Source of the DNA: Pseudobutyrivibrio sp.
GTDB taxonomy: Bacteria > Bacillota > Clostridia > Lachnospirales > Lachnospiraceae
DNA: 37,746 bases
NCBI GenBank assembly: GCA_024693775.1
Contig: JAILKL010000059.1
Location: 1 to 37,746, forward strand
Direction: 5' to 3'
Position 1 is the stretch's first letter, and each line of letters opens with the position of its first letter. Shown here piece by piece: positions 10,222 to 25,184 of this stretch. The notes below the pieces were generated by a model, which searched no databases, was not told where the DNA came from, and saw nothing but the letters and a program-made list of their open reading frames with translations. A program made the translations under genes and the position numbers.

Positions 10222-13200
10222 CTATTTGATTGTAACTGGCATCGTTTCTGATCTAGTTACTTCTGTTAACGTATTATCGATAACAGAGTATCCAATTACA
10301 TAATAGTAATATACGCTGCCACTTGTCAAATTAGAGTTTGTGTATTTTTTGAGACTTGCTGGATAACAAGCAACTTTCTTTTCATTTCCAGCTTCGTCTA
10401 TACGATAAATCTTGTAAATTGTCACATCGCCAACTGCCTCTGACCAATCTATTGTTGCCTTTCCTGTTGAATTGCTTGTTACTTTGATTGTAGAAGTAGT
10501 AATACCTGTTGTTTTTTGAGCTGTCTTATATTCGCTATACTGTAAATCATTGTTAATTGTTGCATAGCTACGAATCTTTACCTGATAACTGCATACGCTA
10601 TCCAGACCAGTAAATGTATATTCCTCACTTCCATCAGATATTGTTGTAGATGCTACAACTGCGCCAGTATCCACTTTTATAATCTCGATTTCGTCACCGT
10701 CTGCATAGATATCATGAACCCATGTAGCTGTTACAGAAGTACTATCACTTGTTAACTGTAAATTGATAGGAGTTCCAACTACTATATCTGGATAGTATGT
10801 CTTAGATCCTGATATATTTCCAGTTCCTGTAAGAGTAACTGTGCATGGTGAATAAATATTTGTACCATACTCTACTGTATAGTCTGTGTTTTCTGTAAGT
10901 TTGTATGGATCATTGTCATCAGACATAATAAATACTGACAATGGTGGCTTAATCTGATAGCCCGTATATCGATTGTTCTTTGAATAAACAACATTACAGT
11001 TTGAAATATCTCTTGAAACAATCTCGTATGATGCTTCTTTTGGATTGCTAACTGTAGCTGAACCTACTTTATAATTAACAACTACAGTAATAGTTCCTAA
11101 ATCAGTAAAGTTTTCTGTCTGTGTAGTTCTATCGTCATCTCTATAATATTCTATTGAGCTGATTTCTGCAGAACTTACATTCAATTCTGGAACTATCTTG
11201 ATAGGGTAACCAGTAAACTCATATTTAGGATCAATATTTGTTATTTCAACATCGTCTTCATTAAACGATATTCCGTAATTTACTGATTTTTCTCCCTGCC
11301 AATAGTGATCTCCATTTCCGACATATAGCACTGTTCCATCAGAGAAGAAATCGTCTGTTGATGTTATTTTACTTGCGGAATATTCTCCGTTTTTTAATAT
11401 AAAGTCTTCTGTCTGTTCATTCTGATGCTCAAGAACTAAAACACAATCAGGATCTATTTGTTTACCTGTGTACAACTGAGGCTGTACACCCTTCACATAT
11501 GTTCCATTATATTCGTAGTATGCCTCTGTTTCTGATAAATTACCCCAAATATAGTATTCTAATTCTTTTTCTCCTGTATAATTTCCTATACCTGTAACTA
11601 CTAATGTCTTCTTACCTGGAGTGATATTATCTGTAAGTGTTAATGTATAATCTACATCTTCTGTTAGCGCTAATGTGCCGTCATTTACTTCTATTTCTGG
11701 CTCTATTGAATATCCTTTATTGTAGAAATAATTATTACCATTATCTCCATTATTCATGAACTTGACACTGAAATCACTGTCTGAAATATCATCTTGAAGT
11801 ACCAAGTACATGATTCTAAATGTTGCTGCTGTAGAGCCTGAAGCAAAGTAATTTCCACCGCTGTAATTAGTAGCCGTAGATGCTGCTATTGATACTGTAA
11901 TATATGATGCACTTATTATTGCTCCAGTATCCTTATTAAATGTCGAAACTGGAATATCCTCATCACTTTCATCATCATATGCTACTGTATAATCTTCATC
12001 CTCTGTTAACTTGCCCTTAGTCTGACCACTTGTTCCTAAAGTATTATCTGTTACCGTAATCGTAGGTTTAATCAGATTATTTTTATTTTTGTAAACGGCA
12101 TAATAGTAGTTAACATACTGACTTGCATAATCTGATGTAATTAAATCAGTATCAACTAAATATGTGGTTACTGCAGATTCATCCATTCTCTTTACGCTTG
12201 TATCCGCAATTGTAAATGTAAGCTGCCCTGCTGTCTCAGTTGTAAATGCTGTTTCATTTGTAAATGTCTTTGATGCATCCGTAATCTCTTTTCTATTGAT
12301 TGCATATAGCTGTGATATTGTTCCACAGTATGAACCCAATCCTGTGATTACTATGTATTTTTCTCCAGCATCTACTGATGCATCCTTTTCACCTGAAGCA
12401 TCAATGTATGATACTTCATAATCTTTATTTACTGTTAGACGTGTTGTTCCACTATATACAGTAGGTGTTGGCTTTTGAGCGATTCCATTATATGTATAAT
12501 GGCACATTGCTGTCTTATTAGCTGATGATGTATATGTATAGCTAGACTGATCAGCATTTTGCATTGAATATGTTACCTTAAGATCTGTTAAGGTGTTTAG
12601 ATTCTTTCCAATGTTGTATGGCAATGTGATGGAATCTGTATAATTACCCTTACCTGTAATAGTAATTGCTGGAGAACCATCTGCTACAGTTGCGTTAACT
12701 GTGTCAGAACCATCTCTATTCCATGCGCCTGTGCCAGCAGCCGAGTTGTTAGTAAGACTAATCTCATAATCTGTACCCTCTTCCAGCACCTTATGAGTAG
12801 TACTTGTACCTGCTATCTTCAAATCCTCAATAACTAGTGTTGGAATATTTGTTGGATTGTCTGTACTATTTACTTCTGTAACGTCTGATAAATATATTTT
12901 TAAGCCCTCTGTATCAGTTGAAATTACATATCTTGTATCAGCTGTTACATAATAATCTTCCCAATTACCCGGTTTATACTTAAGCTCTGTCTTACTATAG
13001 TAATAGTGGAAATTATTTGATAATGAACGCGGTGTCACCTTAAAGATTACAGAGTTTGTCTGTATACAGTTATTTGCTCCAACTATTTGTATAGTATATT
13101 GTCCTATCTCTTTTAATGTGGAAGTACTTCCTGCTGCATTTAATACCTTAATCGTGTAGTCATATCCATCCGAATATTTTTTCATTGATCTTAAAGGGGT

Positions 13201-16200
13201 AGTACCATTTACTGTTACAGTAATAATATCGTATGGATCAATTGTCTTTCCTGTATACTCTGTAGTTGTTGGATTGATTGTAATTGTTGAACTACGTAAA
13301 TCCAGCTGGCTAATGGTAAATTCCTTTGAAATATTAGTGCCTGTGTAATTACCGTTATCTACAGCAGATATAGTTACAGATCCATTTGTAGATACACCTG
13401 ATGCATTGTTAGTATATACAGGAGTAGTATAATCTACACCCTCAGTTAAAGTATGTGTACCATTTTTTACAGTGATTGTAGGTTTAACCTCTACGCCATA
13501 TCCTGCATAAATTGCTTCTCCTACAGTAATCATTGATGCTGTTATTGCAACCTGATTAATTGTGAATTCAGCAGTCTTTTCACCTGAATATGCATTTATA
13601 CCTTCCACAGTAACTGTGGCAGTGCCAGCATCAACATTGTTTGTGTATGATACTGTATAGTCTGTATTTTCACGCAATGAGTCAGACCTACCTGATACAG
13701 TAACTGTCACTGTAGGTTTAATCTCTGATCCAGTATAATCAAATTTTGTTCCACTTAATGTAACTGTTGCATTTTCAAGTGAAATTCCCGCAACCTTTAA
13801 TGATGCTGAAAGTGATCCATATACTGTTGTTTTATCCTTTGGCTTTGCTGTAATCGTATAGTCGTCCATCAATGTAACTGTTGCTGGTGAAATAGTTACA
13901 TAATCAGTTATTGACGAATTGTAAATAATTGTCTTACCTGAAGTTTGTGACGAGTCTGTAACAGTTATTTGTGCTGGTACTGTTATTTCGGAACCTGTGT
14001 ATGGCAATTCCGTAACACTCTGACCAGACCCATCTATAAACTTCATAGTTGCATTACTTAGGTTGTATCTAATATAAAATGGGTAATTAGTACCTGATGT
14101 ATTACTATTTTCTATAAAATATCTACTTCCCGTGCCTGGTTTTAATACTGCATACCATAGACCAACATCCTTTGGCACAGATCCGCTACCACTATATGTA
14201 ATAATGTAATCTCCAGCGCCTGCTGCACCATCAGTAGTAGTTGTAGCCTGTATAGCACCCGCACTCTTTAATTCAGAAAAATCTACTGTAATATTGCTTC
14301 CTGTATAGTCATAGACTTTGTCGTCATTGACGACTGTGCCACCCGCTAATGTAAGTGAAGTATATGTACTTACATCAACAAGGAAGCATACCGGATTTCC
14401 ATTGGTATAGGTCACTCCTGTAACAGTGCCTGAACATGCACTATTTTCTTTGGCTGTTACTGTGATATCCGCATCAGGACCTGGAAGTCCTTCTCGCGCT
14501 CTTGTAACTGTTGTATGATTTAAAGGATTTGCCAATGTTTGGCTATAGGTTAAATCTCCTTGGTTTTCCTTATACTTAATTATTGGAGTATATGTCGTAG
14601 TAGGATCACCTGATGGATACAATTCATAGCATCCATAAGTAGCACTTGTAGTGTTTTTTGTATATTTTGCATCCATGGTTACATTTGCATATGATGAATT
14701 TAATTTCAAAATAATGTTAAATGTTACCTTTTTATAACCACTATATGATCCTATTCCGTGTAACCAGAACCAGTTTGTATTATCACCATATGAAGGTGCT
14801 TTGTTAGCACCATATATTTCTGTAATACTAGTGTCATTTTCCTGAGCCTGTATTGCAGCCAAAACAGTTGTGCCAGCTATGGAATCTGTGGCTGTTTTAT
14901 CTGTTACAATTTCATAGTCTATTCCATAAGTTAATGTAGTGCTTGATGAACTTGTTCCTGTTGCAAGTTTTAATGTTTTGGCTGATGATTCAACATCGCT
15001 CTTTATCTGTGTAGGATCAATTACAGATGCAATATATTCATAGTCATCTGAGAATGTTGCAGTAAAATCTTTTATAGAATTTGTGGCTATAGTGAAGGTT
15101 ACTGTTAAATTCTTGCTATTGTCCTCATAGTTATCCCCAGTTATCTTGATGTTTATAGTTGCCGTTCCAGGATTAGTATTACTTGTGTAACTTATTGTGC
15201 ATTTGCTGCTAGTAATATCATTTCCTGACATATCAGTCACTACTAATGCTGGTTCTTTAGCTGTACCATCAAAAATAAATGTTTCCTGCGTAATTGCAGC
15301 TGTATAAGTAGAGCTACTTGTATCAATCAACAAATTGTTACTGTCTGACGCATCCGCATAGTATACCTTTACATATCCAGGAACAATCTCCCTTACAATT
15401 GTTATGCTATCCGTAAAGTTTCCTACGCCAGCAAATGTATTGGACTTACTTGAAACAACATCAGTGCCAACCAACGCATTTTCAGGTGTGAAATCGCTAG
15501 AAGTCAGATTATATGCACCATCTGTTGATGTACTTGGTAACGTAACTGTAGCAGGATAATAATACAGCTCTGGAGTAGCATATAAACTATCACCTGTATA
15601 ATACATTGTTCTATTTCCTGCAGTTCTAATTCTGCTATTGGTTGCACTATCAGAAATTGATACAGGTATTATCTGATAATATACTGTGGCCGTTCCATAA
15701 TAGCCTCCCATACCAGTAATTGTATAATTTACTTTATTATAATCTGTACTTGATTTTGCAGCATCTGTCTTTAGTCTTGCATCATACGCATTGTCACCTG
15801 TTAGTGTGGTTTCGATACTTGTTACTTCATAATCAGTATTTTCGGATAATCCCGTACTGCCCACTGTGAAACCAATTATAGGTGCTTGGCCTATTCCGCT
15901 TGCGTTTCCTCTCCAAGGAATTGACCATCTACTAGTATCAGTAGTGGTATTTGTTGCATTAGCTTTAAAATATGTTGACTCAGTATCTATCAAATAATCT
16001 CGTCCGTTATATGGACTTATAGTAACTAATGCACTTGAAATATCTTTACCAACATAGTATGTCTTTGATATTTCTCCTGTAAAATTACCTGTTCCAGCAA
16101 TTTTTACTGTTTTTTTACCTGCAGTTCCTATACTGGTATTGCTTGAATAATCTACTGTATAGTCTTCCTCAGTAAGTGTTGTGGTTGTTGATCCATTTAC

Positions 16201-19200
16201 ATATGTTAAGGTAAGTGATAATTTTACATCATTGCCAGAATCATAATTTTTTTGATATTCATCATCTAATGAAGTATTATCTGCCTCAACTACTGTAACA
16301 TTACTAATATCTACAGGCTGAATCTTGAAATATACGACTGCATTATTATGCGCATATGATCCATATCCTTTAATGTAAATGTATGGAGAAGAATCTTTAC
16401 TCCAATCTCCACTAATATTTGCTTCTGTAGAGTTAACATATGATAATGTATAATCTTTATTTCTTGTAAGCTCATTTCCTTCGCTATCATATACCGTAAC
16501 AGCACAGCTTTGCTTTATACCTGAGCCCTTATAATGTGTGATAAATGTATCATCTAGATAATATACATATTCGTAATTTCCACTAGAGTCTGCACTTGTA
16601 GGTGTTGATTGTACAATAGCCGTATTTACGCCATTTTCACCTGTCACATTAATTGAATATCCAGATGTATTACTTGCTATTGTAAATTTAACTACAACAT
16701 CATCCTTTAAATTGCCGTTGGATGTCGCACTTATTGTAATGGTTCTTTCTCCAGGTGCAGGATTCTGCTCATAAGTTACAGAGAAATTATCATTGTACAA
16801 AGTATCACTGGCTGAAGGGTCTATAGTTTCAGAATATGTAGTATTTGTTCCATCTGTTATAGAAACCTTCACAGCTGGTGTAATGACCTTACCTGTGTAT
16901 GTATATGTCTTATTTTCAACAAGACCTACTACTACATTATCCGAATTACCTGAAGCTATGCTTGCTTGATTTATAGTAAATTGATATTTGTCTCCACTTA
17001 AAGTGCCCTTATAATTACCTAGACCTGTAATTGTGTATGTTGCTGTTCCTGCGTTAGTATTATCTGAATATGTTATTTCATAATCTGTGCCTTCTGATAG
17101 TACAGTTGCTCCATATTTTAATGTAATATCTGCTGATGAAGAGGAGGTAGATGTACCTGTTGTTAATTTCTGCTCTGTTCCATCAAATGTCTTTGAAATA
17201 CTTGAACTAATAGTAACTGTAACATTGCTTAATGGTAAGCGTTCAACAGTATATGTGGCAACCTTGTCTATACCTGCATACGTATTCAGACCTGTAACCT
17301 TAATATATTTTGTTGTTCCACTTGTGACATCATTAGTTAAAGTCTTAGTGCATTCTGCATCATCATAAATACCAATTTCGTAATCAGTTCCTTCAACTAT
17401 TGTTGCATTAGGAACAAACACCTTGATTGTAGGTGTTGCATCAGTAGAATCATATTTACTGTCCGTTGTTGCAAAATACTTGCTGGTCATATTTGGATTA
17501 TAGTAGGTTGTATATCCAGTTGCATAACCATTTGAACTTGTTCCATCATAATTCGAACCGTCCGTAATACGTATAACCAAATCATTTTTATAACATGGAA
17601 TAATTTTATATGCGGACTGTTTGTAGGTGCTTGAATCAAAATTATTGCCAGCACCTGTTACGCGTACTTCTGGACTATCTGTTGTTTCTGTTCTATCTCC
17701 TATATAGCTTGTTGTATAATCCGGTTCTGTTGTATAATCCGTATCTGTTGTATAATCCGTATCTGCGGTTAATTTTTCATCTCCTATATAAACGTCAAAA
17801 TCAGTACCGGCAACTGGCTCAATTTTTTCTCCAGTATGGTCAAACTGGTAATTGCCATCTACACCATTATGTTTCCATTTTATTGTTGTAGAAGACATAC
17901 TGGCTTTTTGAATTGTAAAATTGACTGAAAGACTTCCAGTATAACCCTTATTATCTTTCATAGTAAATGTTATTGTTTTTTCGCCAGCTGTTATAGCACT
18001 TTTTTCTGTACCACCCTTATCTGTGATTATATAATCAGCTGTATCCTTGTTAATTACATCAGTAACTACCTGACCATCACTATCTGTAAATGCTACTTCA
18101 AGCCAAGAATTATTATTTGAAGAATCTACCGTTAGTGTTTTTTCTAAAGCTGTATATTCCTCATCCTTAAAATTATTACCCTTGCTGGTCAGACTGACGC
18201 TATATAAGTCACTTATATCTAAACCTTTTTTTAATTTGGTCCATGTAACATCACCTGTAAAGTTTCCTGTACCAGAAAGGTTTACAACATATGTTATTCC
18301 TGTAGATTCAGCAGAAGATGTAAAACTATTAACTACAAAATCTGTATTAAATACTGGTGTTACTCCAGAAATTGCCGTTATACCGGTGATGCTAGTTATT
18401 GTACTATTAGACACTGTTAAATCAGCGCTAGCAAAAGCATCTACTGTTAAAGTAATTGGCGAAATAGTAAAACTTCTAGTGTATGTATATGTCTTTGTGT
18501 TTACTGTTTGAGAAATAGTTACGCTTGCTTTGCTAGTACTTGTACTTACATTTGTATTATTATCCCATTTAGTTATTGTTACAGTAGCCTCTGTTCCTGA
18601 TGCAGAGTACGCCTTTACTGTTGGCTGTACCTCTTTGCCGGTATAGCTAATTGTAGGTTGAGCATCAGTACTATCTGGATCCCATTCAGCAATAGTAAAA
18701 CTAAGTACATAAACTGTTACATCCTTTGTTGAAGTAGTAGTCGCATTTACGTAGCTTGCACGTACTGTAACAGAACCTGGTCCTACTGCAGTTAATTTTC
18801 CTGTTGCAGAATCAATAGTTGCCACAGTACTTGTATTTTCAACGATTGACCATGTAACTGTTCTATCAACTTCATTTCCATTGCCATCTAAAATTTTTGC
18901 AGTAAATGTTTCTGTATCACCTTTTCCAAGATGATAATAGCCGCTACTATCTGCTTCAGCAGTTGTTGCACTTATAGAATCAATAACATACGAATCTGTT
19001 GTCTTATCTGTAATTTCTACCGTATCACCAGATACTATATAAAAAATTTCATTATAAGCAGAAGCAGACTCCCATGCTCCTGTTACACCTATCATATATG
19101 TTGGTGCATTATATGTAGTTCCGTGTTGTGTACCAAATCCGATTTCCACTTCATCATTCGTGGTTGATACAACTATAGAATAAGTTTCTCCACCAGAAAT

Positions 19201-20874
19201 ATATCCAGCATCATCTACATCAAACGGAATTTCAACAGCCGTTGTCTGACTAGATGTAGATGCATCTATTGTTATTGTCTTTTGAGAAACCAATGTACCT
19301 TTTGTTGGATCAGTACTACTACTTGTCAATGATTTATATACAGAAGCTGTGAACGTATAGCTTACATTTGCTTCCATTTTGACATCGAACTTTGCCTTTA
19401 ATACGCGAGTATATTTATCTGCAACTGCAGTCTGGATTGTTGCAAATTTCTGAATTGGTGACAAAGTTACCCAATTTGAAGAATTATATGTACCTGTAAC
19501 ATATGTAGTAAAGTGCTCTGCATCGAAATAAACATCTTCGCCTACAATCTCAGACTCCATTTCTGTTATTGTGTAGTCTTCTTCAATTCGATATACAGTT
19601 ACTTCTTCTTCATCCTTGTCTTCTAACTCCTCCAATCCCAGGAAGGATACCTTTACAGTGTTTCCATCGTCCTGTGGTTGATACTTCTCTCCACTACGGC
19701 GATAAATATTGATATTGTATGCAGCTGTGGCTACAAATGCGCCCTCTTCGAGATTGTTATTTACAACCTCTTCCATTGCCTTTGTGCCCACGTAGAGAAT
19801 ATCTACTGTGGCGCCGCGTGGCATCATACCAGAAACTACGACCTTTGTGCCGTAGAAGGTTCTTGTGAATTCCTGGTAAACCAGGCGCTCGTCCTCATAA
19901 CCACAGTGTGTACATACACCATCTTCATCTAATGTACACTCCTCTGTGATTTCCTCACCGCAATGTATGCATCTCTTAACATGAGTGCCGTCGCCGTTGC
20001 TGACGTACTCGTACTCATGCTCGCACTCTTCCTCTATTAGATTGCCATCGGCATCGAATGTGCCTGTGATTCTTTCCTTTTCAACTGCGATTAACTTACC
20101 TGTTTCCTCATCGAGAACATACTCATATATGATTTTTGTCTGAGTTCCGTCTTCGTTTTCGATGATTTCGAAGTAGGTTTCTCCCTCTTCATGAGTTTCT
20201 TCTTCGGCTTCCTCCTCTTCTACTACTGGGTCACCATTTTCATCAAAATTTCCGTCAACTCGCTCTTTTTCAACAGCAATTAATTCGCCTGTCTCTTCAT
20301 CTGTTACATATTCGTAAACTACCTTTGTCTGGGTTCCGTCCTCGTTTGTAATAATTTCATAGTAAGTCTCGCCTGCTGTATGAGTATCTTCTGTATCTGA
20401 TGGTTTTTCTGATTCTGAGGTTGTTTCTGTATTTGTTGGGTTTTCTGTTATTTCGCTTGCTGGATCTGTTGGCTGGCCCTCTACGTTTGTTGTTGTCTGA
20501 TCTGTAGACTGACCTTCTGTATTTGTTGGCTGACCCTCTTCAGCTGTAGCTGGCTGATCTGCAGACTGGCCGTCTACATCTGTGGTTGCTGGCTGATCTA
20601 CAGACTGGTCAGAACCGCCTGTTCCTTCTATATTATTAGAAGCTCCTGCATCTGATGGTGTGCTGGCTGGCTCGGCCGCTGGCGCCGATTCCTGTGCTGG
20701 CGCAGCATTATCCACGGTACCGGATTCTTCTCCGCCACCTTCTGCACTGGCCTCCGCCACCACTTCCTCTGCCGTGGCTGCCACATACACATCATTTCCT
20801 ACCATTGCCATAAGCATAAGCAGTACTAATGATAATGATAATAATCTTTTGTTTAATTCTTTGATGTCTCTCAT
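10222..20874 (-). CDS. Giant secreted Ig-repeat adhesin (3550 residues)
   Basis: A signal peptide (LLSLSLVLLMLMAMVG) is followed by a low-complexity Thr/Gln/Glu/Ala region to about 165. Next come two near-copies of a 50-residue unit (GETYYEIITNEDGTQTK, GETYFEIIENEDGTQTK) and a four-cysteine ribbon-like motif (RCIHCGEE...VCTHCGYED) near 300-328. A Big_2-type domain lies near 630-725 (KLTAVGPGSVTVRASY). From there to about 3360 it is a long series, more than 20 by eye, of divergent Ig-like units with the pattern YTGxxIxPxVTV, LxEGTDYxVxYxNN and GxGNYxG. Two fibronectin type III domains close the protein (about 3370-3550). No transmembrane helix or sorting motif is seen at the C-terminus (ends SETMPVTIK), so it may be secreted or held non-covalently. 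GGGGA lies 9 bases before the ATG. It is the first gene of the operon with the sortase and LRR protein. Adhesion is inferred from the architecture. Confidence 0.9.
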   Translation of the reverse strand: MRDIKELNKRLLSLSLVLLMLMAMVGNDVYVAATAEEVVAEASAEGGGEESGTVDNAAPAQESAPAAEPASTPSDAGASNNIEGTGGSDQSVDQPATTDVDGQSADQPATAEEGQPTNTEGQSTDQTTTNVEGQPTDPASEITENPTNTETTSESEKPSDTEDTHTAGETYYEIITNEDGTQTKVVYEYVTDEETGELIAVEKERVDGNFDENGDPVVEEEEAEEETHEEGETYFEIIENEDGTQTKIIYEYVLDEETGKLIAVEKERITGTFDADGNLIEEECEHEYEYVSNGDGTHVKRCIHCGEEITEECTLDEDGVCTHCGYEDERLVYQEFTRTFYGTKVVVSGMMPRGATVDILYVGTKAMEEVVNNNLEEGAFVATAAYNINIYRRSGEKYQPQDDGNTVKVSFLGLEELEDKDEEEVTVYRIEEDYTITEMESEIVGEDVYFDAEHFTTYVTGTYNSSNWVTLSPIQKFATIQTAVADKYTRVLKAKFDVKMEANVSYTFTASVYKSLTSSSTDPTKGTLVSQKTITIDASTSSQTTAVEIPFDVDDAGYISGGETYSIVVSTTNDEVEIGFGTQHGTTYNAPTYMIGVTGAWESASAYNEIFYIVSGDTVEITDKTTDSYVIDSISATTAEADSSGYYHLGKGDTETFTAKILDGNGNEVDRTVTWSIVENTSTVATIDSATGKLTAVGPGSVTVRASYVNATTTSTKDVTVYVLSFTIAEWDPDSTDAQPTISYTGKEVQPTVKAYSASGTEATVTITKWDNNTNVSTSTSKASVTISQTVNTKTYTYTRSFTISPITLTVDAFASADLTVSNSTITSITGITAISGVTPVFNTDFVVNSFTSSAESTGITYVVNLSGTGNFTGDVTWTKLKKGLDISDLYSVSLTSKGNNFKDEEYTALEKTLTVDSSNNNSWLEVAFTDSDGQVVTDVINKDTADYIITDKGGTEKSAITAGEKTITFTMKDNKGYTGSLSVNFTIQKASMSSTTIKWKHNGVDGNYQFDHTGEKIEPVAGTDFDVYIGDEKLTADTDYTTDTDYTTEPDYTTSYIGDRTETTDSPEVRVTGAGNNFDSSTYKQSAYKIIPCYKNDLVIRITDGSNYDGTSSNGYATGYTTYYNPNMTSKYFATTDSKYDSTDATPTIKVFVPNATIVEGTDYEIGIYDDAECTKTLTNDVTSGTTKYIKVTGLNTYAGIDKVATYTVERLPLSNVTVTISSSISKTFDGTEQKLTTGTSTSSSSADITLKYGATVLSEGTDYEITYSDNTNAGTATYTITGLGNYKGTLSGDKYQFTINQASIASGNSDNVVVGLVENKTYTYTGKVITPAVKVSITDGTNTTYSETIDPSASDTLYNDNFSVTYEQNPAPGERTITISATSNGNLKDDVVVKFTIASNTSGYSINVTGENGVNTAIVQSTPTSADSSGNYEYVYYLDDTFITHYKGSGIKQSCAVTVYDSEGNELTRNKDYTLSYVNSTEANISGDWSKDSSPYIYIKGYGSYAHNNAVVYFKIQPVDISNVTVVEADNTSLDDEYQKNYDSGNDVKLSLTLTYVNGSTTTTLTEEDYTVDYSSNTSIGTAGKKTVKIAGTGNFTGEISKTYYVGKDISSALVTISPYNGRDYLIDTESTYFKANATNTTTDTSRWSIPWRGNASGIGQAPIIGFTVGSTGLSENTDYEVTSIETTLTGDNAYDARLKTDAAKSSTDYNKVNYTITGMGGYYGTATVYYQIIPVSISDSATNSRIRTAGNRTMYYTGDSLYATPELYYYPATVTLPSTSTDGAYNLTSSDFTPENALVGTDVVSSKSNTFAGVGNFTDSITIVREIVPGYVKVYYADASDSNNLLIDTSSSTYTAAITQETFIFDGTAKEPALVVTDMSGNDITSSKCTISYTSNTNPGTATINIKITGDNYEDNSKNLTVTFTIATNSIKDFTATFSDDYEYIASVIDPTQIKSDVESSAKTLKLATGTSSSSTTLTYGIDYEIVTDKTATDSIAGTTVLAAIQAQENDTSITEIYGANKAPSYGDNTNWFWLHGIGSYSGYKKVTFNIILKLNSSYANVTMDAKYTKNTTSATYGCYELYPSGDPTTTYTPIIKYKENQGDLTYSQTLANPLNHTTVTRAREGLPGPDADITVTAKENSACSGTVTGVTYTNGNPVCFLVDVSTYTSLTLAGGTVVNDDKVYDYTGSNITVDFSELKSAGAIQATTTTDGAAGAGDYIITYSGSGSVPKDVGLWYAVLKPGTGSRYFIENSNTSGTNYPFYIRYNLSNATMKFIDGSGQSVTELPYTGSEITVPAQITVTDSSQTSGKTIIYNSSITDYVTISPATVTLMDDYTITAKPKDKTTVYGSLSASLKVAGISLENATVTLSGTKFDYTGSEIKPTVTVTVSGRSDSLRENTDYTVSYTNNVDAGTATVTVEGINAYSGEKTAEFTINQVAITASMITVGEAIYAGYGVEVKPTITVKNGTHTLTEGVDYTTPVYTNNASGVSTNGSVTISAVDNGNYTGTNISKEFTISQLDLRSSTITINPTTTEYTGKTIDPYDIITVTVNGTTPLRSMKKYSDGYDYTIKVLNAAGSTSTLKEIGQYTIQIVGANNCIQTNSVIFKVTPRSLSNNFHYYYSKTELKYKPGNWEDYYVTADTRYVISTDTEGLKIYLSDVTEVNSTDNPTNIPTLVIEDLKIAGTSTTHKVLEEGTDYEISLTNNSAAGTGAWNRDGSDTVNATVADGSPAITITGKGNYTDSITLPYNIGKNLNTLTDLKVTYSMQNADQSSYTYTSSANKTAMCHYTYNGIAQKPTPTVYSGTTRLTVNKDYEVSYIDASGEKDASVDAGEKYIVITGLGSYCGTISQLYAINRKEITDASKTFTNETAFTTETAGQLTFTIADTSVKRMDESAVTTYLVDTDLITSDYASQYVNYYYAVYKNKNNLIKPTITVTDNTLGTSGQTKGKLTEDEDYTVAYDDESDEDIPVSTFNKDTGAIISASYITVSIAASTATNYSGGNYFASGSTAATFRIMYLVLQDDISDSDFSVKFMNNGDNGNNYFYNKGYSIEPEIEVNDGTLALTEDVDYTLTLTDNITPGKKTLVVTGIGNYTGEKELEYYIWGNLSETEAYYEYNGTYVKGVQPQLYTGKQIDPDCVLVLEHQNEQTEDFILKNGEYSASKITSTDDFFSDGTVLYVGNGDHYWQGEKSVNYGISFNEDDVEITNIDPKYEFTGYPIKIVPELNVSSAEISSIEYYRDDDRTTQTENFTDLGTITVVVNYKVGSATVSNPKEASYEIVSRDISNCNVVYSKNNRYTGYQIKPPLSVFIMSDDNDPYKLTENTDYTVEYGTNIYSPCTVTLTGTGNISGSKTYYPDIVVGTPINLQLTSDSTSVTATWVHDIYADGDEIEIIKVDTGAVVASTTISDGSEEYTFTGLDSVCSYQVKIRSYATINNDLQYSEYKTAQKTTGITTSTIKVTSNSTGKATIDWSEAVGDVTIYKIYRIDEAGNEKKVACYPASLKKYTNSNLTSGSVYYYYVIGYSVIDNTLTEVTRSETMPVTIK

Positions 20875-22055: not shown

Positions 22056-22140
22056 TAATCTCTCCTTTTTTATCGTCTTTATATCCATTTTTTTAATATC
22101 TCCCCGCGATCTTTGTGTTTATAATCGTTGATATTGGTTA

Positions 22141-22209
22141 CTATTTTCATGTCCTGCGAAGCAGGATTATTGCTGACAATTTCATTGTTTGATCAGCAAG
22201 AAGTCATAG
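22141..22209. repeat. Left arm of a 69-bp inverted repeat (pairs with 23661-23729)
   Basis: The 69 bases match the complement of 23661-23729 at 66 positions. The arm contains two hairpins: TCCTGC-GAA-GCAGGA (22152-22166), and one with outer arms TTGCTGA and TCAGCAA (22170-22199) enclosing ACAAT-TTC-ATTGT. It ends in AAGTCATAG, a tail also seen at the other arm. It stands directly upstream of the antitoxin gene, pointing the other way. Confidence 0.9.
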
Positions 22210-22336
22210 GTTTTTGATTTTCCTCAGAAAATCAAGAACCGGACACAGACCAATATTTTCTGAAAGAAAATGTTGCTTGGCAAAGCCAAGTTCTTGTGGG
22301 CTTTTTCCTTAAGTGGCCCACAAGAAGTCATTACTT
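22206..22336. repeat. 131-bp direct repeat, copy 1 (four-hairpin module)
   Basis: Identical over 131 bases to 22463-22593. It contains four consecutive stem-loops: TTGATTTTC/GAAAATCAA (22214-22222 with 22227-22235), ATTTTCT/AGAAAAT (22255-22261 with 22265-22271), CTTGGC/GCCAAG (22276-22281 with 22285-22290) and CTTGTGGGC/GCCCACAAG (22293-22301 with 22316-22324). It follows the left inverted-repeat arm without a gap. No open frame runs through it. Confidence 0.93.
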
Positions 22337-22462
22337 ATTATACCATAGTTTGCATGTCCTATTTGTGAAATACGAGATGTATTGTTATTGTTTGTAACGG
22401 TTAATATGACATGAAAATTGTTTTATATCACATTTCTAGCATTTAAATCTATTCCCAAATGT
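22337..22462. other. Spacer between the two 131-bp copies, no gene seen
   Basis: This is 126 bases of AT-rich sequence separating the two identical copies. It holds no hairpin comparable to those of the module and no supported reading frame. Confidence 0.5.
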
Positions 22463-22593
22463 ATAGGTTTTTGATTTTCCTCAGAAAATCAAGAACCGGA
22501 CACAGACCAATATTTTCTGAAAGAAAATGTTGCTTGGCAAAGCCAAGTTCTTGTGGGCTTTTTCCTTAAGTGGCCCACAAGAAGTCATTACTT
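22463..22593. repeat. 131-bp direct repeat, copy 2 (four-hairpin module)
   Basis: A perfect copy of 22206-22336, 257 bases downstream, with the same four stem-loops and the same tail GAAGTCATTACTT. Complete identity, including loops and linkers, implies a recent duplication or gene conversion. Confidence 0.93.
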
Positions 22594-22827
22594 CTAAGTA
22601 TCAAATAATTAAATATGAATCAGCAAAGGATTTTAACTATTTTTTTAATTCTCCTTCTTGCGGCGTATCTACCTTATTTAATGTATACATTTACCTCGTT
22701 AATTCTTTATAAAATGCTAATAATTCTTTTATTTGCCTAGCGCTATTTGGTTGATTCATAAATAAACTATTCTGATTTCTTTTTGTCTGTCATCATTATT
22801 ATCTGATATCTTTCAGATTAAATTAAT
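22594..22827. other. AT-rich intergenic stretch, possible gene remnant
   Basis: This 234-base region has no supported gene. On the minus strand two tiny adjoining frames (22691-22759, MNQPNSARQIKEL..., and 22637-22690, MYTLNKVDTPQEG...) sit head to tail. They could be debris of a decayed gene or chance; nothing recognisable remains. Confidence 0.35.
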
Positions 22828-23643
22828 CTATATCAAATCATATAGCTCCAATTTTTTCATTATCAGCTCTATATTCAAAGGCATATCTCTAAATTCTCGT
22901 GTCACTATCAAATTGTCCCCTTGCAGATATCCATTAGTTTCATACTGATGTATCTTATAAAGGTTTGTCGATGCGTATTCCTCATCATCGCCTCTTCCTA
23001 GATGCTCCCAATAGATTGTCTTTCGCTCCTTTAAATTCAACACAACAAAATCCGGATAAACCCGCCTATTCCCCAGCATCAACTCCGGCTCATACTGATA
23101 TGGTATACCTTTTTGATATAGTAAATCTGCTATGATTTTTTCTGATTTGGATCTAACCATTTCACCTTGTTGTGTTTTAAAAGTTCCTTTCTGGGGATAC
23201 CCGTTTTGCATTCCTGAGTGCTTTTCTGTCCATTTAGCAATAAACTGTTCATCTGTATCCGATATTCTTTTGACTAAGAATCTTTTTCCTTCAGACATTT
23301 TATTCAAAGCTTCTGTCTCACAGTCCGAACAATAGCTCTCCAAAAAATTGTCTATTAATTTTTCCTGTTTTTTTATTACCTTTTCCAATCTATGTAAATA
23401 TTCGTTTTGCACAATTACGCTAGCCTTTGGTAGCTCGCTTTGCTTTATATATGTCCTTTTATTTTCTTCTTTTTTATAATAAATGTACTTATCTTTTTGA
23501 GGCACGGTCCAAACCTTATAAATGCCTAGATTATCTTCATATTCTTTCTCTAATTTTTCTTCATTTAGCTTTTTCTGCTTTTCTAACTCTATTAAGGAAC
23601 TTTTTATCATTTCCTTCTCTTTAATAAAAATCTTTGTTTTCAA
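22828..23643 (-). CDS. Hypothetical protein with PD-(D/E)XK nuclease-like C-terminal domain
   Basis: The 271-residue protein begins with a charged coiled coil (about 8-40) and a second helical segment (about 78-105) that runs into CSDC. The C-terminal half follows the order of PD-(D/E)XK nuclease folds: VRSKSEKIIADLLYQKGIPYQYE (E168), then VYPDFVVLN (D198), then TIYWEHLG (E213), then a helix with K230 and DNLIVTRE. The third motif reads E-H rather than E-x-K, so catalysis is uncertain. I do not know a characterised homologue. The start is a TTG at 23643 with AGGAG about 8 bases upstream; ATG at 23610 is the alternative. The leader between the promoter side and the start consists of three hairpins shared with the inverted repeat at 22141. 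It is the only convincing gene within the 22141-23729 inverted-repeat unit. Confidence 0.65.
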   Translation of the reverse strand: MKTKIFIKEKEMIKSSLIELEKQKKLNEEKLEKEYEDNLGIYKVWTVPQKDKYIYYKKEENKRTYIKQSELPKASVIVQNEYLHRLEKVIKKQEKLIDNFLESYCSDCETEALNKMSEGKRFLVKRISDTDEQFIAKWTEKHSGMQNGYPQKGTFKTQQGEMVRSKSEKIIADLLYQKGIPYQYEPELMLGNRRVYPDFVVLNLKERKTIYWEHLGRGDDEEYASTNLYKIHQYETNGYLQGDNLIVTREFRDMPLNIELIMKKLELYDLI

Positions 23644-23660
23644 TAACTCACTCCTAAAAA

Positions 23661-23729
23661 CTATGACTTATTGCTGACCAAACAATGAAATTGTCAGCAA
23701 TAATCCTGCTTTGCAGGACATGAAAATAG
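23661..23729. repeat. Right arm of the 69-bp inverted repeat, leader of the nuclease-like gene
   Basis: Complementary to 22141-22209 with three mismatches. Read on the minus strand it gives TCCTGC-AAA-GCAGGA, then a TTGCTGAC/GTCAGCAA hairpin, then AAGTCATAG, ending about 10 bases before the AGGAG of the 22828-23643 gene. A further perfect 11-bp hairpin (CATGAAAATAG at 23719-23729 with CTATTTTCATG at 23736-23746) overlaps its outer end, so the leader of this gene would carry three tandem stem-loops. Confidence 0.9.
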
Positions 23730-23738
23730 ATAAACCTA

Positions 23739-23759
23739 TTTTCATGGTATTTACGATTT
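23739..23759. repeat. 21-bp repeat, third copy of the Fic terminator arm
   Basis: Differs by two adjacent bases (GG for AA) from 21221-21241 in the same orientation, and matches the complement of 21188-21208 except at one position. Here it is not part of a 21-bp hairpin. Together the copies bracket the Fic pair and the inverted-repeat unit. Confidence 0.7.
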
Positions 23760-24358
23760 CATTTTTCATGTTTTAGGTTTTTATTTTCTCTAAACATGAT
23801 TTGGGCTTTCTCTTTTTCATGTTTTTGAATTTTATTTTCTCGAAACATGATTTGCTCTTTCTCTTTTTCATGTTTTTGAGTTTTATTTTCTCGAAACATG
23901 ATTTGCTCTTTCTCTTTTTCATGTTTTAGATTTTTATTTTCCTTAAACATGATTTGGGCTTTCTCTTTTTCATGTTTTTGAATTTTATTTTCTCGAAACA
24001 TGATTTGCTCTTTCTCTTTTTCATGTTTTTGAATTTTATTTTCCTTAAACATGATTTGCTCTTTCTTTTTTTCATGTTTTTGAATTTTATTTTCTCGAAA
24101 CATGATTTGCTCTTTCTCTTTTTCATGTTTTAGGTTTTTATTTTCCTTAAACATGATTTGGGCTTCCTCTTTTTCATGTTTTTGAGTTTTATTTTCTCTA
24201 AACATGATTTGGGCTTTCTCTTTTTCATGTTTTAGAATTTTATTTTTCTTTAACATGATTTGGGCTTTTTCTTTTTCATGTTCTAGAATTTTATTTTCTC
24301 TAAACATGATTTGCTCTTTCTCTTTTTCATGTTTTAGGTTTTTATTTTCCTTAAACAT
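23759..24358 (-). CDS. Doubtful repeat-encoded 199-residue coiled-coil frame
   Basis: The 51-bp array is open in this frame and would encode twelve 17-residue repeats of the type MFRENKIQKHEKEKEQI. Variation is at fixed positions (Lys/Arg at 3; IQ, NL, TQ or IL at 7-8; EKEQ, EKAQ or EEAQ later), giving a highly charged helical protein. Against translation: no ribosome-binding site precedes the ATG at 24358, a TGA stands two codons upstream, most differences between units change the amino acid, and an exact multiple-of-three period keeps a frame open by itself. For: every unit stays open and several changes are conservative (Lys for Arg). I list it only as a possibility. Confidence 0.25.
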   Translation of the reverse strand: MFKENKNLKHEKEKEQIMFRENKILEHEKEKAQIMLKKNKILKHEKEKAQIMFRENKTQKHEKEEAQIMFKENKNLKHEKEKEQIMFRENKIQKHEKKKEQIMFKENKIQKHEKEKEQIMFRENKIQKHEKEKAQIMFKENKNLKHEKEKEQIMFRENKTQKHEKEKEQIMFRENKIQKHEKEKAQIMFRENKNLKHEK

Positions 24359-24359
24359 G
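23762..24359. repeat. 51-bp tandem repeat array (11 full units plus one partial)
   Basis: CATGTTT recurs at 23767, 23818, 23869, 23920, 23971, 24022, 24073, 24124, 24175, 24226, 24277 and 24328, exactly 51 bases apart (the 24277 unit reads CATGTTC). Each unit is a 32-base inverted pair, usually CATGTTT...AAACATG, followed by a 19-base pyrimidine-rich linker. The variants are mosaic: the left arm reads TAGG, TAGA, TGAA or TGAG; the right arm reads TCTAAA, TCGAAA or CCTTAAA; the linker reads ATTTGGGC or ATTTGCTC. Neighbouring units differ and similar units recur at a distance. There are no unique spacers, so it is not a CRISPR array. Confidence 0.95.
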
Positions 24360-24558
24360 AATCAGTACCAGCCAGGAACGAAAATATCCCTGGTTTTACT
24401 GTATAAAATCTAAAAAATGGGAAATAAAAATAGAATAATAGAATAAATACTCATAGAATCTATAATAATTCCCATCAACCGTCAACCCACTTCATTATTC
24501 CTGTGGAATTATTATCTTACATACATATATGTCTCCGAATAACTATTCTTTTTTCTAC
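24360..24558. other. Gene-free stretch between the two repeat arrays
   Basis: It holds a CCAGG/CCTGG hairpin (24372-24392) and a long-loop ATGGGAA/TTCCCAT pair (24417-24423 with about 24470-24476). A TTCCTGTGGAATTATTATC segment near 24499 resembles the left arm of the first unit of the 24656 array and could be a decayed extra unit. No gene is seen. Confidence 0.5.
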
Positions 24559-24628
24559 AATAACCCGTTCTCCAACCCTTTCCACACAAAAAAACTCCAG
24601 GCCTGGGGCCTGGAGCTCTATTATTACT
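24559..24628 (-). terminator. Duplicate of the ABC-operon terminator, upstream copy of a 70-bp direct repeat
   Basis: Nearly identical to 25074-25144: AATAACCCGTTCTCC, then CCCTTTCCACAC, a run of A, and the stem CTCCAGGCC/GGCCTGGAG. On the minus strand the stem is followed by seven T. This copy lies beyond the 74-bp array, so RNA reading out of the ABC operon would meet a second identical stop. Confidence 0.8.
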
Positions 24629-24655
24629 TGTTCCTATGATCTCTCCTGGCTATTT

Positions 24656-25063
24656 CCCCTGTGGATTCTTTATTATTGTAGATTTACAGGTGGATATTTT
24701 TATTTCTATTTTTCTTGTTTTGATAATTTTCCCTGTATTTCTTTATTTCTTTGAATCTACAGGGGTATTCTTGCTCTATTTATATCACCCACCCTTGCTT
24801 TTCACCCTGTAGATTCATTGCTTTCTTTTCTTTGCAGGGGCATTCTCGCTTTTATACTTCTTGCAATTCTTATTTTTGCCCCTGCAAATCCCTTATTATC
24901 TTTATTTCACAGGGGAAAAAGAACAATCCGTTATCTTATTTGTATTCATTTCACCCCTGCATTTTATTCTTTTTATTGGTTTTACAGGGACATTCAAGAT
25001 TTCACTTTCCCTTAATTCTCTACTGTCTCCTGTAAAATCTTTATTTCTCCAATTTGCAGGGGG
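24656..25063. repeat. Six-unit array of CCCTGYA hairpins, period 73-75 bp
   Basis: Six left arms (CCCTGTG, CCCTGTA, CCCTGTA, CCCTGCA, CCCTGCA, CCTGTAA) place their CTG thymine at 24660, 24734, 24808, 24883, 24958 and 25031, so the spacing is 74, 74, 75, 75 and 73. Each is followed about 22-24 bases later by an inverted right arm (TACAGGG or TGCAGGGG type). Right arms also pair with the left arm of the next unit: GAATCTACAGGG (24753-24764) with CCCTGTAGATTC (24805-24816), 12 bp, and TTTGCAGGGGC (24831-24841) with GCCCCTGCAAA (24878-24888), 11 bp. The DNA between arms is AT-rich, pyrimidine-biased on the plus strand and not conserved. The period is not a multiple of three, so it is not a repeat-coding frame. 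Confidence 0.9.
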
Positions 25064-25073
25064 ATCCTCTTCC

Positions 25074-25144
25074 AATAACCCGCTCTCCAACCCTTTCCAC
25101 ACAAAAAAAAACTCCAGGCTGGGGCCTGGAGCTCTATTATTACT
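25074..25144 (-). terminator. Intrinsic terminator of the ABC exporter operon, downstream copy of the 70-bp repeat
   Basis: On the minus strand the stem CTCCAGGCC/GGCCTGGAG type hairpin (25112-25131) is followed by nine T, about 50 bases after the stop of the last ABC gene. The surrounding 70 bases recur at 24559-24628. Confidence 0.88.
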
Positions 25145-25184
25145 GCAGCTTCCTGCTAGAAAGCGGTTACGTTCCTGCAGAAAT

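Follow-up and report, generated by a model that had tools for sequence, protein, structure and literature searches.

What kind of genetic unit surrounds a small nuclease-like gene of Pseudobutyrivibrio is the question raised by the stretch of DNA analyzed here, a window of 37,746 nucleotides. The gene lies between two inverted repeats, called arms in what follows, and the original prediction, made from the sequence letters, took the 1.59 kb from arm to arm to be a single unit: a mobile element, an RNA-guided or RNA-regulated enzyme, or a small defense unit. The gene, the arms, and the two copies of a module found in the same place are as follows:

22828-23643, minus strand: 271-aa nuclease-like gene (structure model, alignment, PADLOC match)
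22141-22214, plus strand: left arm, a copy of a dispersed hairpin repeat (15 genome matches, RNA folding)
23656-23729, minus strand: right arm, the same repeat, between array and gene start (15 genome matches, RNA folding)
22206-22336, plus strand: 131-bp hairpin module, a dispersed repeat (24 genome matches, many partial; RNA folding)
22463-22593, plus strand: second, identical copy of the 131-bp module (genome matches)

Two other features of the window can be recorded here. An Rfam TwoAYGGAY RNA motif lies at 907-1031 on the minus strand, and a single open frame of 3550 amino acids without a Pfam match, adjoining a class B sortase gene, occupies 10222-20874 on the same strand.

The arms are present as described, each 74 nt long, with the right one directly before the AGGAG and TTG start of the gene. 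The hairpin leaders held well for the right arm, whose RNA folds into two hairpins (z -4.0), and in weaker form for the left, which also gives two (z -2.5, with 3 of 200 shuffles equally good); the RNA of the 131-bp module folds into four (z -7.1). What fell away is the role of the arms as borders. The window genome (an assembly of 2.34 Mb in 132 contigs) holds 15 matches to the arm, the two arms included, some of them partial and 10 on contigs where no family gene was matched, together with 24 matches to the module; the arms are generic repeats found at many unrelated places, an outcome that the original prediction had itself named as counting against it. None of the six paralogues in the window genome has arms on both sides, the one on contig C54 being at a contig edge with one side visible, and other family loci show different sequences upstream. 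Samples of two congeners, 1.12 Mb together, gave no match to the arm and a single one, of 33 bases, to the module. The arms and modules are dispersed repeats, and the 1.59-kb “unit” is not an element. The arms do face each other around the gene with 95% complementarity, but the repeat counts, the paralogues without paired arms, a site array left outside the arms, and a segment absent from empty sites that exceeds the arm-to-arm unit make a mobile element bounded by arms of 69-74 bp almost certainly the wrong picture.

Arm and module pieces form a mosaic hairpin repeat family, seen in the window at 22141-22336 and 23656-23759 and on other contigs. Such pieces lie within about 1.5 kb of five of the seven family genes of the window genome.

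The array that lies outside the arms, upstream of the right one, is the feature on which the remainder of the analysis turns:

23759-24364, no strand assigned: phased site array of 51-bp repeats, CATGTTT and AAACATG alternating, 24 phased sites, upstream of the gene (repeat and phasing analysis)

The right arm thus sits between this array and the gene, and none of 200 dinucleotide shuffles was phased as well. A 199-aa frame running over the 51-bp repeats was rejected as a gene, having no Pfam or NCBIfam match and quite different arrays in its place at other loci. Upstream of the paralogues in the window genome there are inverted-repeat clusters as well, with a different motif at each gene that has one. 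Across the family, an array was scored by its commonest 6-mer paired with the reverse complement, which had to beat all 50 dinucleotide shuffles. Arrays were found upstream of 79 of 99 gene entries, among which one window-genome gene appears three times (L041, L014, and L029, all scoring) beside some close orthologues, or 77 of 97 without the extras; 20 of the 99 failed this first test. Elsewhere the test was passed less often: downstream of the gene in 14 of 101 cases, in coding sequence in 2 of 104, and 1.2-1.8 kb upstream in 3 of 63. The window gene is outside the 99 because its locus offered too little upstream sequence, and it was tested apart.

Within an array the sites alternate in orientation, and their sequence differs between loci; arrays also differ in what separates the sites, which hardly changes in some and varies in others. 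Distances between sites of the same orientation peak at 52-53, 62-63, 73-74, and 94 bp, with a weak step at 84 bp (2 loci). The best-fitting period among those tried is 10.5 bp, with an n·R² of 102 over 190 locus-distances, those within an array not being independent, and of 43.5 over 97 locus-distances once the five-turn peak is left out. Sixty arrays have at least three gaps of one type, and in 55 of them the length of one kind of gap varies by no more than 2 bp (a free count). Counted on 55 representatives of the 60 arrays, 40 sites start with TAC, GAC, or TGC followed by variable bases, in a register with a convergent gap of about 24 that took only convergent gaps of 21-26 and favored 24-25, so that the gap values are partly by construction. 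The largest array, at L161, has up to 32 exact sites. Among imperfect sites, 95 versus 74 changes keep sense-strand G-U pairs, a small excess that is not significant (p = 0.12). Because the spacing follows steps of 10.5 bp, the sites are probably read as duplex DNA and not as RNA.

Some loci depart from this layout. At L172:1150-1753, in a MAG labelled Tenericutes, the period of the array is 47 bp, which misses the phasing rule by half a helical turn. At L179 and L188, which hold related genes, the array is directly downstream and none was detected upstream.

The protein beside these arrays is predicted to have two parts. An AlphaFold model of the window protein is confident (mean pLDDT 88.7) and consists of an N-terminal helix, three short strands, and a long helix, followed by an alpha/beta C-domain. 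Modelled alone, the N-terminal part has its strands at residues 43-49, 52-59, and 62-65; it is the predicted DNA-reading part, and a fold search with it gave nothing useful (best E 0.41). The C-terminal domain appears PD-(D/E)XK-like on weak fold matches in the PDB, none of which reached E <= 0.001 in Foldseek (best E 0.0095) and many of which are PD-(D/E)XK nucleases such as MunI, DrdV, Hjc, and Card1; among viral structure models, 12 fold matches reached that threshold. Residues E168, D198, and E213 are invariant in 62 of 62 aligned proteins (alignment A2, made up of the window protein and 61 of the 62 proteins listed for the loci; alignment A3 holds the window part and 54), as is the P197-D198 pair, and the sequence E213-H214-L215 shows that the lysine of ExK is missing from its usual place. 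No Pfam or NCBIfam family is common to the 62 aligned members and none matches the window protein, nor did a PDB sequence search or a search of genome contigs with the single protein give anything informative. All 62 members match the PADLOC candidate defense models PDC-S68, and 33 match HEAT_CxxC_PDDEXK; in the window protein, residues 147-264 match the C-terminal end of a PDC-S68 model.

The six paralogues of the window genome are 29-39% identical to the window protein, and family matches (E <= 1e-10) occur in at least 41 of 99 genomes, the window genome included, with up to at least 11 per genome; within the genus, at least 28 of 29 genomes carry them. Of at least 578 confirmed loci the best 80 were fetched; their records carry the labels Pseudobutyrivibrio, Butyrivibrio, Lachnospira, Acetatifactor, and Lachnospiraceae, or one of a handful of vaguer names. 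When neighboring genes were clustered no recurrent partner appeared, the largest cluster covering 7 of 43 loci; a type II restriction-modification system would have a methyltransferase gene as its partner. None of 50,697 phage and 72,556 plasmid records covers 80% of the protein; the best, a 4.2-kb phage record that bears no annotation, covers 73% at 33% identity. Partial matches borne on plasmids are annotated as AAA family ATPase or RecQ helicase in five of six records.

Does each protein belong with its own array? Similarity of sites between loci tracks identity in the N-terminal hairpin region (r 0.33, matched by none of 500 permutations), and the correlation of the C-domain with site similarity is 0.02 once the N-terminal part is accounted for. 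All nine GAC-site representatives, and none of the 23 TAC-site ones, have Arg at residue 42 (numbered as in the L037 protein); all 23 of the latter, and none of the former, have Gly at residue 44. Of course, relatedness inflates covariation and co-occurrence signals. Proteins with TGC sites depart from the simple rule (Arg 42 in two of eight), and C-domain columns covary with site class too, so clade effects contribute.

Loci that share a chromosomal place provide a second line of comparison. For example, L110 (site TGCATC) and L108 (TACAGT) are 96% identical in the near left flank, 47% in the array, 54% in the N-terminal half of the protein, 96% in the C-terminal half, and 98% in the near right flank; the L108 record starts in the outer left flank, which is therefore only partly comparable. 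The pair L173 and L070 follows the same pattern, with 95% in the C-terminal half and 93% in the right flank as against 52% in the N-terminal half and 41% in the array. Non-identical pairs of the same specificity have arrays 48-67% and N-terminal halves 64-77% identical, whereas pairs of different specificity have arrays 37-51% and N-terminal halves 47-58% identical; array identity therefore separates specificities only loosely, given the overlap of these ranges. Several specificities coexist in one genome. The comparison of sequences suggests that gene and array are matched partners.

At the window locus itself, which has an ABC transporter gene on one side and a Fic gene on the other, gene and array appear to come and go together. 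Within the genus 25 genomes were informative here: six carry array and gene, with a motif that differs from one to the next, and in the other 19 neither was seen. Of 30 pieces fetched for this place, five were not long enough to be counted, namely those of four genomes and a second one from G023. Seven of the 19 empty cases are confirmed with both flanks adjacent, and twelve were judged from about 1.5 kb without an array or a family frame; in the window genome and G002 the gene extends past the fetched 1.5 kb and is known from the family search. The seven aligned empty sites measure about 107-190 bp, compared with 3.1 kb in the window and 1.7 kb in L154. The segment in question is the following:

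22093-25184, no strand assigned: segment from the ABC transporter gene to the Fic-side homology, absent from seven aligned congeners, with array, gene, and repeats inside (locus alignment)

Direct repeats of 41 and 37 nt, each in two copies about 515 bp apart, were also noted at 24558-25144, between the array and the ABC transporter gene.

Arrays also occur away from any family gene. In an evenly spaced 800-kb sample of genome G011, four arrays were detected, two at family genes and two alone, both of the latter with the site CACTTA, which is the site upstream of L176, a family gene of the same genome. The detector missed the L176 array, so gene-less arrays may be missed too. CACTTA arrays are about 350 bp long and scattered in several species of the genus. 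Query matches to them occur in 8 of the 10 genomes that have this gene type and in 2 of the 19 that lack it (Fisher 4e-4), a count in which any match to part of an array from three queries suffices, G001 rests on a 42-bp match, and the window genome, with a TTAAGT array on contig C76 but no query match, is counted as without. The genome G021 has two CACTTA-type arrays and no gene of that type at E <= 1e-60. As far as can be judged from such matches, gene-less CACTTA arrays occur mainly where the matching gene is present.

CACTTA arrays are present in one species and absent at the orthologous place in others; no clean ends or target-site duplications were found for gene-less arrays, and in one case the whole intergenic stretch differs. 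Counting orthologous copies, 21 gene-less CACTTA arrays were placed, 15 between co-oriented genes, 5 between convergent genes, and 1 between divergent genes. Abundant gene-less copies were seen for this one specificity only. In L145, L174, and L167 (the last by way of TTACTG) a gene-less array shares its site with a gene in the same locus, and a gene-less array in L129 carries the site of L161, from the same MAG. No matching gene was assigned to those in L109, L106, L097, and L131 or to the ATCACA arrays, the kind to which the one gene-less array in a 320-kb sample of G009 belongs. Two ATCACA arrays, at L179:7750-8500 and L374:15750-16550, come from two species and have some flanking sequence in common.

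Sequence comparison supports the association of gene and array, the phasing, the covariation, the joint exchange, the joint presence or absence, and the matching gene-less arrays. From there we infer binding, a dimer, nuclease action, mobility, and a protein that causes the spread of its arrays. The N-terminal hairpin of the protein would read a short duplex site of about 6-9 bp, and a dimer would probably occupy two convergent sites whose 6-mer cores are about 24 bp apart. Site pairs 5, 6, or 7 helical turns apart would align many such dimers on one face, and the conserved PD-(D/E)XK-like domain would then act on the DNA of the array. Copies of the array may spread to other extragenic places of the same genome, much as REP palindromes do with RAYT enzymes, and an exchange of array and N-terminal half together would change the specificity. 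As a whole, this account of matched partners, duplex reading, nuclease-like action, array spread, and joint exchange is given about an even chance of being right.

One could consider instead a regulator and its operator array, in which the protein represses its own gene, the gene-less arrays are a small regulon, and the nuclease-like domain is structural or a relic. Most arrays lie immediately ahead of the gene, several of the gene-less ones are followed by some gene, and any autoregulator must exchange its DNA-reading part and its operator together. Autoregulation explains the exchange, but not the downstream arrays of L179 and L188, the length of arrays such as that of L161, or the convergent placement of 5 of the 21 gene-less CACTTA arrays; the invariance of E168, D198, and E213 also argues against it, and it is considered unlikely. 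A defense or addiction nuclease is another candidate, with the array soaking up the protein or marking self while free protein attacks invading or array-less DNA. The matches of all 62 members to PDC-S68 and of 33 to HEAT_CxxC_PDDEXK fit such a role, as do several specificities per genome that are exchanged at one place. It would sit less well with the lack of a recurrent partner gene (7 of 43 loci at most) and of any phage or plasmid record covering 80% of the protein, which leaves it quite improbable.

An RNA system would have the array transcribed into hairpins that guide, regulate, or neutralize the protein, in the manner of type III toxin-antitoxin repeats. It draws on the usual position of the array ahead of the gene and on units that are inverted repeats, and it has to contend with unit spacing in 10.5-bp steps, with arrays that are downstream or alone, and with a G-U excess that goes in its direction without being significant. 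On the spacing and the G-U counts it was rejected as the main account and is very improbable. Of the original interpretation, then, a nuclease-like gene joined to repeated inverted DNA remains, and the RNA-guided or RNA-regulated enzyme is unsupported by those same two results.

If the account of a protein that reads and spreads its own array is true, it would explain one kind of array that lies between genes in Lachnospiraceae of the rumen and gut. It would also offer a natural library of DNA readers, each protein beside many copies of its presumed target, with a recognition code readable from sequence. Somewhat more tentatively, the pairs may be a new class of element, in which a nuclease-fold protein reads duplex sites by a swappable hairpin code and propagates helically phased arrays, with several orthogonal specificities per genome.

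The original prediction knew of no described family with such a design, and no description of one was found in the open literature searched. To our knowledge, the pairing suggested here, of a nuclease-like gene with its own matched array of short DNA sites, is known from no described system. The PADLOC models PDC-S68, PDC-S69, and HEAT_CxxC_PDDEXK share a related C-terminal domain, but the PDC-S68 models span about 1200 positions, whereas the domain in the present family follows a small N-terminal part and comes with an array. In type III toxin-antitoxin systems (ToxIN), a repeat array just upstream of a nuclease gene acts as RNA antitoxin; the position of the array just upstream of a nuclease-like gene is similar here, but the spacing and covariation point to duplex DNA. 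Iterons of plasmids and centromere-like arrays consist of helically phased repeated sites beside the gene of a binding protein, as is presumed for the protein here. Unlike them, the present arrays are chromosomal, with several specificities per genome, a PD-(D/E)XK-like protein, and gene-less copies.

The nearest known arrangement is that of REP/BIME palindromes and the genes of RAYT (TnpA-REP) transposases. The gene stands beside cognate repeats of alternating orientation that are also scattered outside genes, repeat and protein coevolve, and repeat abundance follows the presence of the gene (PMC2817692). The enzymes, which are of the HUH tyrosine type, recognize and cut folded single-stranded REPs, and RAYT genes are flanked by REPs on both sides (PMC2817692; PMC8266576). 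The present pairs likewise have cognate inverted repeats of alternating orientation beside the gene (upstream in 79 of 99 entries) and dispersed cognate repeats correlated with it (8 of 10 versus 2 of 19 genomes for one specificity, with G021 as an exception). Unlike the HUH tyrosine transposase, the protein here is PD-(D/E)XK-like and has no Pfam family common to its 62 members, and its short sites are phased by helical turns, which favors a duplex over a folded single strand. The arrays here are also mostly one-sided (14 of 101 downstream regions score) and few and long, compared with over 100 short REP copies. Since the enzyme differs from that described in these sources, and the substrate probably does too, the gene-array pair is not a member of REP/RAYT; if the account given here is true, it would be a second, unrelated partnership of enzyme and repeat in bacterial genomes.
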